A DNA stretch of 64,000 nucleotides from a bacterium (lineage in GTDB: Bacteria > CAIWAD01): the NCBI GenBank assembly GCA_030429345.1, contig JAUIFJ010000005.1:1-64000 (forward strand), read 5' to 3'. The notes under the pieces were generated by a model. It was given only the letters and a program-made list of their open reading frames with translations, was not told the origin of the DNA and ran no database searches. How positions within the stretch are numbered: position 1 is the first letter of the stretch; each line of letters begins with the position of its first letter. Made by a program: the position numbers and the translations under genes. Below are positions 51,906 to 58,562 of the stretch, piece by piece.

Positions 51906-53153
51906 CTAGAACTGGTGGAAGGTCTTCTCGATGATCGTGATGCATTCTTCCAGCTGTTCATCGGTGATCACCAGCGGCGGCGCGAAGCGGATGATGTCGT
52001 CATGGGTCGGCTTGGCCAGCAGGCCGTTCTCCTTCAGCGCCAGGCAGACGTCCCAGGCGGTCTTGCCGTTGGTGGGCTTGACGACGACGGCATTCAGGAG
52101 ACCCTTGCCGCGGACAAGCTCGATCATCGGGTGATCGATGGCCTGCATGCGGGCGCGGAAGACCTTGCCCAGGCGCTCGGCGTTCTCGGCCAGCTTCTCG
52201 TCGCGTACGACATCCATCGCCGCCAGGGCCACGCGGCAGGCCAGCGGGTTGCCGCCGTAGGTGCTGCCGTGCTCGCCCGGGTGAATGCAGAGCATGATCT
52301 CCTTGTCCGCCAGCACCGCCGAGACGGGCAGCACACCGCCGGAAAGGGCCTTGCCGAGGATCAGCACATCGGGGCGCACCTCCTCGTGGTCGCAGGCCAG
52401 CATGCGGCCGGTGCGGGCGATGCCCGTCTGCACCTCGTCGGCAATGAAGAGCACATTGTGCCGGTCGCAGATCTCGCGCACGCCCTTCAGGTAACCCTCG
52501 TCGGGCACGAAGACGCCGGCCTCGCCCTGGATCGGCTCGACCAGGAAGCCGCAGACATCCGGATCCGCGGCCTCGCGCTCCAGCGCGGCCAGGTCGTTGT
52601 AGGGAATCTTGACATAGCCGGGCAGGAAGGGACCGAAGCCGTTCAGGCAGTCCGGGTCTGTGCTGGCGCTGATGATGCCCATGGTGCGTCCATGGAAGTT
52701 GCCCTCGCAGACGATCACCTTGGCCCGGTTCTCGCCGATGCCCTTCTTCGTATAGCCCCACTTGCGGGCCAGCTTGATGGCCGTCTCATCCGCTTCCACG
52801 CCCGTATTCATGGGCAGCATCATGGTGTAGCCGAAGAGCTCGGTCAGCTTCTTCTCGTATTCGCCCAGCACATTGTTGAAAAAGGCGCGGCTGGTCAGGG
52901 TCAAGGTTTTCGCCTGCTCGACAAGCGCGCCGATGATTGCCGGGTGGCAATGCCCCTGGTTGACCGCGCTGTAGGCGGAGAGGAAATCGAAGTAGTGGAC
53001 CCCTTCCGGGTCCCAGACATGCACGCCCTCGCCCTTGGCCAGCACCACCGGCAGCGGGTGGTAGTTGTGGGCGCCATAGTTCTCTTCCAGCGCCATTGCG
53101 TCGGCACTCGATACGAGGCCATTGACCAGGGCGGTGTCCAGGGTCTGAGTCAT
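51906..53153 (-). CDS. rocD: Ornithine aminotransferase
   Basis: The 415-residue class III aminotransferase converts ornithine and 2-oxoglutarate to glutamate-5-semialdehyde and glutamate. It shows [58 protein letters not shown] and the PLP-lysine motif ILGKALSGG (Lys ~271), with [17 protein letters not shown]. The length matches the family. GGAGGAG precedes the ATG. With proC at 16707 it could link arginine/ornithine breakdown to proline synthesis. Confidence 0.96.
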
Positions 53154-53450
53154 GAATCTCCTCCGGCTGGGGTGTCTAGGTTTCGCGCCGGTTGCGCCCC
53201 GGTAGGATCGGGTAGGGAAGGCAGGGACTTAAGGCCCGGAATCCGGCAGCCGCCCCGGCAGGCAGAAACTCGCGGAACTTCGGAAAGGGCACCCGCATTC
53301 TCAACGAAGAAGAATGCAAGATCGACCGCTCAGGACGCCGATAGGAGCACTCCGACCCCGGTTGCAGCTTCCTGAGCGAGGCCATACCTTACGGGGTTCC
53401 ATACTGTTGATAAAACCGGGCCCTGCGCCCGATGACGAATAGGAAGCTTC
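53154..53450. other. Divergent region between rocD and secA
   Basis: About 300 bp with no supported gene. It should contain both promoters. GTTGATAAAACC near 53408 is AT-rich enough to form part of a secA promoter, but no -35/-10 pair is convincing. A GGAAG site lies before the secA ATG. Confidence 0.5.
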
Positions 53451-56438
<2,988 letters not shown>

Positions 56439-56462: not shown

Positions 56463-56500
56463 AAAGCCCCCGCGGAGCGCTCCGCGGGGGCTTTCTCTTT
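56463..56500 (+). terminator. Strong terminator after secA
   Basis: A perfect 32-bp palindrome at 56463-56494 (arms AAAGCCCCCGCGGAGC and complement) is followed by TTTCTCTTT. It lies 25 nt after the secA stop. The A- and T-rich ends would let it work in both directions. Confidence 0.9.
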
Positions 56501-56552: not shown

Positions 56553-57221
56553 ATGAGCGAAAAGAAATCCACCATTTTCAATGACTTTCGAACGGAAGTC
56601 ATCGACATCAACCGGGCCTTTGCCGAGATCCGTCCCCTGATCCGCGAGACCCGGCACCTGAGCCTCAACGCTGAAACCTCCAGCCTGAAGGTGGGACCGG
56701 CGGCCGCGGCCTTTGCCGTCGTAGTCAAGAACCTGAACCAGCTCTCCGAGAGCCTGGGCAGCCAGGTCAACGGCATCGAGGAGGTCTTCAACTCCCTGGT
56801 GCAGCTGATCGGGGAATGGGCCAAGCGCGACCAGCAGATCGGCCTGCACGAGAGGGCCCACGAGCTGATCGCCGAAGGGGCCGAGGAGGAGGCGCGAGAG
56901 GTCCCCTCCATCGAACGCAACCTGGAAGAGGGGCAACAGGACGTGCGCGGCATGGTCGCGGAAGTCATGGATCACATCGAGAAGCTGAACCGCCAGGTCA
57001 CCGAGCTCAACCAGGTCGCCGTGAGACAGTGCCGCTTCATCGCCATCAGCTCGATGATCGAGGCCCAGCGCATCGAATGCGTCGAGGACGGCGACCTGAC
57101 CACGGTCGCCGGCGACATCAACGACATGGCCAATCGCATCGGCAAGGTCGAGCTGGAGGCCCGCAACCGCGTGCTCAACCTGATGACCTCGGCGCGTCTC
57201 CTGGAACAGGCACTCAAGTAG
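56553..57221 (+). CDS. Soluble chemoreceptor-like (MCP signalling-domain-like) protein
   Basis: The 222-residue protein (ATG 56553, GGAG upstream) has no signal peptide or membrane segment and is almost wholly helical. LSLNAETSSLKVGPAAAAFA followed by VVVKNLNQLSESL (residues ~36-68) resembles the conserved MCP hairpin region. A second similar segment, FIAISSMIEAQRI...TTVAGDINDMANRIGKVE, follows near 165-200. The fold is likely an antiparallel coiled coil able to touch CheA/CheW-like partners. It lies 12 nt before the ODP-like gene, which suggests one operon and a joint oxygen-sensing job; that is inference. Confidence 0.8.
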   Translation: MSEKKSTIFNDFRTEVIDINRAFAEIRPLIRETRHLSLNAETSSLKVGPAAAAFAVVVKNLNQLSESLGSQVNGIEEVFNSLVQLIGEWAKRDQQIGLHERAHELIAEGAEEEAREVPSIERNLEEGQQDVRGMVAEVMDHIEKLNRQVTELNQVAVRQCRFIAISSMIEAQRIECVEDGDLTTVAGDINDMANRIGKVELEARNRVLNLMTSARLLEQALK

Positions 57222-57233
57222 GAGAGAGGGCGC

Positions 57234-58013
57234 ATGCTGAAATCGATCGAACTCTTCAACGACGGCCGCCGGCGCTGGATCTTCCTGGGGCGTGATCCGA
57301 AGAAGCCGGACACGCTGATCGACTCCAACCAGTACATCATCATGGAAGGGGACAAGGCCACGCTGCTCGACCCGGGCGGGCTGGAGATTTTTCCCTCGAT
57401 GATCGCCGGCGTGTCACGGGAAGTCGAGATCGAGAACGTCGAGTCGATCATGGCCAGCCACCAGGACCCGGATATCGTCAGTTCGCTCTCCATGTGGTTC
57501 AGCGTGCAGGACAAGCTGAGCGTATACGCTCCCTGGGTCTGGAGCTCCTTCATTCCGCACTTCGGCGGCGCCCGCGAAGTGAAAGCGATCCCCGACGAGG
57601 GCATGATCCTGCCGCTGGGCAGCAGCCGCGACCTGCAGCTGATCCCCTGCCACTACTGCCATTCGAGCGGGCACTTCACGCTCTACGACCCCAGGGCGAA
57701 GATCCTCTTCAGCAGCGACATCGGCGCGGCCCTCGTTCCCGCGGATCACGAGATCTTCGTGCAGGACTTCAAGGCCATGCCGCAGTACATGGAGGCCTTC
57801 CACAAGCGCTGGATGCCGAGCAACCGCGCCAAGAACGCCTGGATCCAGCGCGTGCGCCAGCTGGACATCGAGATGATGGTGCCCCAGCATGGCTGCATCT
57901 TCCGCGGCGAGGACGTGCAGCGCTTCCTCGACTGGTTCGAGGCCCTGCAGGTCGGCAGCGCCGTGGACGGCATCACCGCCGGCATCGCGGAGACGGCGGA
58001 GGCGGCGCTCTAG
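57234..58013 (+). CDS. ODP-type di-iron oxygen-sensor protein (flavodiiron-like metallo-beta-lactamase fold)
   Basis: The 259-residue protein has a lone metallo-beta-lactamase domain of flavodiiron type without the flavodoxin domain. Metal-ligand motifs are SHQDPD (~76-81), CHYCHSSGHFTLYD (His ~147), SSDIGA (Asp ~161) and VPQHG (His ~218). The HxDxD form of the first motif and the YIIMEGDKATLLDPGG start match the oxygen-binding di-iron protein (ODP) described as a chemotaxis oxygen sensor in spirochaetes. GGAGAGAGG precedes the ATG. The MCP-like gene directly upstream strengthens that reading. A simple MBL hydrolase is the alternative. Confidence 0.87.
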   Translation: MLKSIELFNDGRRRWIFLGRDPKKPDTLIDSNQYIIMEGDKATLLDPGGLEIFPSMIAGVSREVEIENVESIMASHQDPDIVSSLSMWFSVQDKLSVYAPWVWSSFIPHFGGAREVKAIPDEGMILPLGSSRDLQLIPCHYCHSSGHFTLYDPRAKILFSSDIGAALVPADHEIFVQDFKAMPQYMEAFHKRWMPSNRAKNAWIQRVRQLDIEMMVPQHGCIFRGEDVQRFLDWFEALQVGSAVDGITAGIAETAEAAL

Positions 58014-58035
58014 GATTGTGATGCATGGATAATCG

Positions 58036-58061
58036 AAGGGGGCCGGTGTGGCCCCCTTTTT
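58036..58061 (+). terminator. Rho-independent terminator after the ODP gene
   Basis: A 7-bp GGGGGCC/GGCCCCC stem with loop GGTGT is followed by TTTTT. It begins 22 nt after the stop codon at 58013. Confidence 0.9.
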
Positions 58062-58078
58062 GTGTTTCAGGTGTCTGT

Positions 58079-58314
58079 GGGTGGTTCGCGCTGCGGGCTG
58101 GCGGCCGCGGGTGGTTCACGCTGCGGGCTGGCGGCCGCAGCTACCTCAAGCCGGCGCTTCGCGCCTTGCGGTATCAGCTTTTCAACTCCGCCGTGCATCG
58201 CGATGTCTTCGGCCGACCAACACATCCTGCAGTGCGGCAAGTGATCGGCGCACCAACACCACGAACCGCGAAGCGGTGGCTCAAGGTAGCTGCGGCCGAA
58301 AGCCCGCAGCGGAA
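58079..58314. repeat. Tandem 30-bp direct repeat leading into a long inverted repeat
   Basis: A 30-bp sequence starting GGGTGGTTCGCGCTGCGGGC occurs twice head to tail (58079-58108 and 58109-58138, one mismatch). The second copy is the start of a ~48-bp arm (58115-58163) that is matched in inverted orientation at 58267-58314 with several mismatches; the spacer is 103 bp. The size and shape resemble a MITE or REP-type palindromic element. It carries no gene. Confidence 0.8.
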
Positions 58315-58562
58315 AAGTGATATTACGGGCAAATCCCACTGCAAGCCTATAGGCCCCCGTCTTCGCGGGGGCGACTGAGTTGGCTTTCCGAGACAATGAT
58401 GCCCAATCAAATCTGTGTGCGCCCACCAACAAACCAAGCCGCAAAGCGGCGAAAGAATAGTAGCTGCGGGTGCCAACGCGCAGACCACATCCCACAGTCG
58501 GCCAACCCGCAGTCTACGGCCAACCAACCCGAGGATCGTACCCCGCAGCGATGCAACCCCAC
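58315..58562. other. Intergenic region with short partial repeats
   Basis: No gene is supported. Sequence such as AAGCCGCAAAGCGGCG and TAGCTGCGGGTGCC partly resembles the arms of the neighbouring inverted repeat, so it may be a decayed second copy. Confidence 0.4.

Follow-up and report, generated by a model that had tools for sequence, protein, structure and literature searches.

Two small adjacent genes, one for a chemoreceptor-like helical protein and one for a flavodiiron-type protein (ODP), lie outside any chemotaxis (che) cluster in the 64,000-nucleotide stretch of bacterial DNA analysed here (the window), raising the question of whether they form an oxygen-sensing module and which system such a module would inform. 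Both open reading frames were confirmed where an earlier note, made from the sequence alone, had placed them. Gene 1 (56553..57221, + strand) encodes a soluble, all-helical protein of 222 aa, classed below as a chemoreceptor-tip-like adaptor of a tandem-tip family, and gene 2 (57234..58013, + strand) an ODP of 259 aa that carries all four of the motifs SHQDPD, GHFTLYD, SSDIGA and PQHG; 12 nt separate the stop codon of the first from the start codon of the second, and a purine-rich ribosome-binding stretch precedes each. The hydropathy scan found no transmembrane segment in either protein (maximum 19-residue value for gene 1, 1.18), in keeping with the membrane-free character previously ascribed to gene 1. 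Between secA and the pair is a hairpin of 14 pairs (56463..56494), terminator-like on both strands, and 3′ of the ODP gene is a second, intrinsic-terminator-like hairpin (58035..58059, + strand). Given these strong terminator-like hairpins after secA and after the ODP gene, the pair has the appearance of a separate unit. No sigma-70-like promoter was found at its locus. The DNA 3′ of the ODP gene (window 58070-58550) is non-coding and repeat-rich: a 30-nt unit occurs twice in tandem, and a 54-nt inverted repeat is 81% complementary.

Sequence comparison identifies gene 2 as an ODP, as the earlier note had suggested, and it is the sole one in the window's genome. It matched the Pfam ODP family (PF19583) at 247.7 bits against a cut-off of 27.2 (E 1e-73, model positions 1-194 of 194), and the closest solved structures were the ODPs 6qrq (8e-67) and 6qnm (7e-60), with flavodiiron proteins far behind. 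Six residues, His76, Asp78, Asp80, His143, Asp162 and His219, were invariant in an alignment across 13 homologues, and by analogy with flavodiiron proteins we take them to be metal ligands; this set is of the flavodiiron type (H-x-D-x-D, H, D, H) rather than the HxHxDH of zinc hydrolases, and gene 2 presumably binds iron and O2. Along the gene, all on the + strand, the ligand regions comprise SHQDPD (57456..57473; His76, Asp78 and Asp80), the CHYCHSSGHFTLYD region (57651..57692), which holds the invariant His140 and His143 and a conserved YD, SSDIGA (57711..57728; Asp162) and PQHG (57882..57893; His219). In a tree built from 62 ODPs, those with an upstream adaptor gene, including the window's, formed one clade with the two ODPs of known structure, from Treponema denticola and Thermotoga maritima (support 0.997). 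Partnerless ODPs from Acinetobacter, Burkholderiales and other gammaproteobacteria, though of the same Pfam family (34–42% identity), fell into another, separate clade and have neither an adaptor gene nor che neighbours.

The chemoreceptor resemblance of gene 1 was weak when the protein was searched as a single sequence and decisive when its family was compared as a profile. On its own, gene 1 matched no curated family in Pfam or NCBIfam, and searches of these and of the PDB returned only weak, mixed coiled-coil and MCP matches; its score against MCPsignal (PF00015) was 13.7 bits, below the curated cut-off of 34.6, while the relative L038 reached 22.9 bits. Domain and hydropathy searches detected no ligand-binding domain, HAMP domain or transmembrane helices in gene 1, some of which soluble MCPs also lack. 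Because it falls below the curated cut-off and carries no sensor or membrane parts, gene 1 is classed as an MCP-tip-derived adaptor and not as an MCP.

For the profile comparison, an alignment of 45 adaptors (gene 1 and 44 relatives from species-genome, plasmid and further genome loci) was split into N-half and C-half profiles, and each was compared with MCP signalling tips. Both halves matched the MCP tip, the N-half at 98.3% (E 2.4e-14) and the C-half at 96.2% (E 2.7e-9), and they matched one another at 93.7%, with all matches in register at the tip, whereas the controls stayed at or below 6%: reversed MCP tips gave 5.5% (N-half) and 1.0% (C-half), and MCP stalks 3.2% and 2.5%, respectively. 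At the family level, the profiles thus identify the adaptor as a tandem of two MCP signalling-tip hairpins, which bears out the MCP likeness that had been read from gene 1. The protein of the window is a divergent member: its first half alone matched the MCP tip at 61%, its second tip was not recognisable (2.3%), and for the four-member clade to which it belongs the C-half match fell to 65.6%. In gene 1, tip motif 1 (residues about 35-59, HLSLNAETSSLKVGPAAAAFAVVVK; 56655..56729, + strand) aligns to the MCP tip without gaps, and tip motif 2 (residues about 163-194, IAISSMIEAQRIECVEDGDLTTVAGDINDMAN; 57039..57134, + strand) is clear in the family but weak in gene 1 alone. In a numbering that we take to be equivalent to that of Tsr, tip 1 conserves Asn 381 (45 of 45 members), Ala 382 (41), Arg 388 (33), Gly 390 (40), Gly 395 (37) and Phe 396 (34), and tip 2 conserves Glu 385 (39 of 45) and Ala 386 (38).

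These features suggest that the gene 1 family represents a minimal single-chain pseudo-dimer, a geometry read from sequence and only partly backed by models. AlphaFold2 predicted all-helical folds for gene 1 (pLDDT 86.3, pTM 0.73) and for the better-conserved L038 (pLDDT 89.2, pTM 0.80), and the best PDB matches found by Foldseek were designed single-chain four-helix bundles at E values of about 1e-3 to 1e-2, among them 8d9o (TM 0.60/0.67, rmsd 5.7) and 6z0c_D (TM 0.58/0.64, rmsd 6.5). The low rmsd over about 206–221 columns suggests a compact four-helix bundle in the adaptor models. No MCP hairpin was among the Foldseek matches, and the DSSP string was broken at tip 2 only, with no break at tip 1. 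Structure prediction, which the earlier note had proposed as a check on both proteins, thus led to designed single-chain bundles as matches but not to the MCP hairpin, and was less decisive than sequence.

The pairing of adaptor and ODP genes was conserved well beyond the window. When 84,980 species genomes were searched with the ODP, 12 loci were returned, distributed among Gammaproteobacteria, Nitrospinales, Planctomycetota, Manganitrophaceae and others, and at all 12 a helical gene of 203–267 aa lay directly upstream of the ODP gene (gap -4 to 50 nt), even though these upstream proteins shared only 13–28% identity with gene 1. Within 369 gammaproteobacterial genomes, 72 of which contained an ODP, strong adaptor matches (profile, E < 1e-30) numbered 20 and every one adjoined an ODP gene, ruling out chance adjacency. 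The reverse search agreed, as an adaptor was found upstream at 44 of the 44 paired-clade ODP loci read out, the most divergent adaptors scoring a modest 34–65 bits against the profile; beside lower-scoring, more distant ODPs, none was found at the 10 loci read out. Checked by sequence and gene neighbourhood, none of the three outcomes named beforehand as contrary to a sensor–adaptor pair (a first protein unlike MCP signalling hairpins, a second protein grouping with ordinary hydrolases, or no conserved adjacency in related genomes) was what we found.

CheA was encoded in all 30 pair-bearing genomes, compared to 194 of the 369 overall (53%; hypergeometric P 1.3e-9, related genomes not being independent), as well as in 13 of 13 genomes of a further set and in 34 of 42 genomes with a solo ODP. 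Nine pairs (L149, L155 and L159-L165) were located inside che operons, with gene orders that included cheA-MCP-MCP-cheW-cheW-adaptor-ODP-cheR-cheB (L161), cheA-adaptor-ODP-MCP (L165) and cheA-MCP-cheW-adaptor-ODP-cheR-cheB. Several pairs follow the order cheA-receptor-cheW-...-cheR-cheD/cheB and so resemble, with class judged by gene order only, stage 1 of the gammaproteobacterial F7 clusters (PMC7184735), the published text on which is silent about ODP and lactamase-like genes.

Unlike the pairs in F7-like clusters, that of the window stands outside any che cluster, and its entire contig (C13) gave no match to CheA, CheW or MCP; the earlier note had seen no CheA, CheW or flagellar gene in the window. 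Chemotaxis genes were instead present elsewhere in the genome, where other contigs encode three CheA, seven MCPs, FliM and several CheW. One of these contigs, C40, has a cluster with CheA, CheW, a HAMP-MCP and a protoglobin-HAMP-MCP that lacks transmembrane segments; among the three CheA systems, this one may reasonably be guessed to be the system that the pair serves. The aminotransferase-secA neighbourhood (window 51906-56438) was retained in two sister genomes (L181 and L182), in which the genes after secA differ; the pair was absent after secA from same-family genomes with this conserved neighbourhood, and a search of the phylum's other genomes turned up no strong adaptor homologue. The pair is thus patchy and may be an insertion after secA, and it is not essential for the chemosensory systems of those same-family genomes. 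That the unit is detachable, as formerly suggested, is something that we infer from its stand-alone locus. Separately, the soluble protoglobin-HAMP-MCP of the C40 cluster (L070, C40:76000-95500) is a second candidate O2 sensor of this genome.

Since conservation of the pair extends to distant bacteria, always together with chemotaxis kinases in the genome and sometimes in che operons, it probably feeds oxygen or iron status into a chemosensory system, and we assign a probability of roughly 70% to the reading that the two genes form an oxygen/iron input module of a chemosensory array, acting in trans on CheA. Here the ODP, a lone flavodiiron-type metallo-beta-lactamase domain that would hold two irons and bind O2, would be the sensor, and gene 1, membrane-free and with the MCP tip hairpin repeated twice, would be its dedicated signalling adaptor, one chain of which would resemble the four-helix signalling tip formed in ordinary chemoreceptors by homodimerisation. 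Depending on its iron or oxygen state, the ODP would bind or release the adaptor, which would take a place among receptors at the CheA/CheW layer and alter CheA activity. The link between adaptor and CheA/CheW is indicated indirectly by CheA co-occurrence and che operons, while metal and O2 binding, the ODP–adaptor contact, docking in the array, control of the kinase and the sign of the effect are presumed.

Unlikely, but the strongest of the alternatives, is that the adaptor serves as a competitor or a structural spacer, its tip-like helices entering arrays and weakening or reordering receptor–CheA contacts in one state of the ODP, with no activation of CheA. In its favour, neither tip retains the full set of MCP hallmark residues, and tip 1, while retaining N381/R388/G390/G395/F396-type residues, no longer has V398 in most members (24 of 45 carry P there); in Treponema denticola, moreover, deletion of the ODP altered CheA ordering in arrays (PMC7666581). 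Conservation across phyla and in che operons is equally expected of an ordinary receptor and does not distinguish the two. Considerably less probable is an enzymatic role, in which the ODP would reduce O2 or NO or handle iron as a scavenger and gene 1 would be a structural subunit or chaperone with no part in chemosensing: many genomes, some lacking CheA, do contain partnerless ODP genes, and flavodiiron relatives are reductases, but the pair has no flavodoxin domain or reductase partner, profile comparison shows its helical member to be homologous to the MCP tip, and the pair is confined to CheA genomes and sits in che operons. A generic coiled coil with compositional similarity to MCPs, to which the weak matches of gene 1 alone to many coiled-coil families might point, is rejected as highly improbable, given that the profile matches align in register with the tip motif, that reversed tips of the same composition and stalks of the same coiled-coil type fail, and that 9 of 13 family members match MCPsignal singly at E<=0.01.

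An input module of this kind has a precedent. The ODP of T. denticola (TDE2498) is genetically coupled to the MCP homologue TDE2496 (PMC7666581; review PMC6978683), which lacks transmembrane and sensing modules yet modulates CheA (PMC7666581; PMC6978683). Like the window pair, this system joins an ODP sensor (the clade-mate 6qrq) to a membrane-free MCP-type partner. The sensor–adaptor idea of the earlier note accordingly holds in outline, but its principle was already known from T. denticola, and the pair loses its billing as the best candidate for an undescribed system (PMC7666581, PMC6978683). In comparison with TDE2496 as published, the window-type partner is about 210 aa long with two divergent tips, and that of the window falls below the MCPsignal cut-off. 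Natural soluble single-chain MCP signalling domains have been reported from Rhodospirillum centenum and a few others, with function not known, and engineered Tsr~Tsr and Tar single-chain receptors signal with two hairpins per chain (PMC4692393). In common with both, the adaptor family combines two MCP signalling hairpins within a single soluble chain, but the natural domains were reported without an ODP, whereas the adaptors are paired with one, and the engineered receptors join two full canonical subunits, whereas the adaptors consist of short degenerate hairpins only. CheO of Campylobacter was considered as an adaptor relative and rejected, as it lacks both an ODP and any known domain.

What is new here is the family of two-tip adaptors, together with its strict linkage to ODPs, its wide range and its presence in F7-like operons. 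We consider it about an even bet that these adaptors constitute an unnamed, widespread family of minimal single-chain chemoreceptor pseudo-dimers of about 210 aa, built of two degenerate tip hairpins, lacking a sensor part and devoted solely to coupling a di-iron O2/iron sensor to CheA arrays from stand-alone loci or F7-like operons. An adaptor tied to an O2/iron sensor, sometimes in F7-like clusters, offers a concrete input that can be tested with two small soluble proteins. If the proposal is correct, natural single-chain MCPs of unknown function would gain a defined input, and sensors that act in trans on chemoreceptor arrays would be known from many phyla, beyond one spirochaete.

Among the solo ODPs, a few adjoin GGDEF genes. 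A partnerless ODP gene was followed directly by a GGDEF gene on a Fusobacteria plasmid (L079:3917-5436) and in two gammaproteobacterial genomes (L167 and L173), where it is possible that the ODP provides an input to cyclic-di-GMP. Additionally, ODP domains were found within longer open frames of 612 and 1730 aa (L174; G273:C1:112797-113522), which are possible fusions of ODP to other domains.
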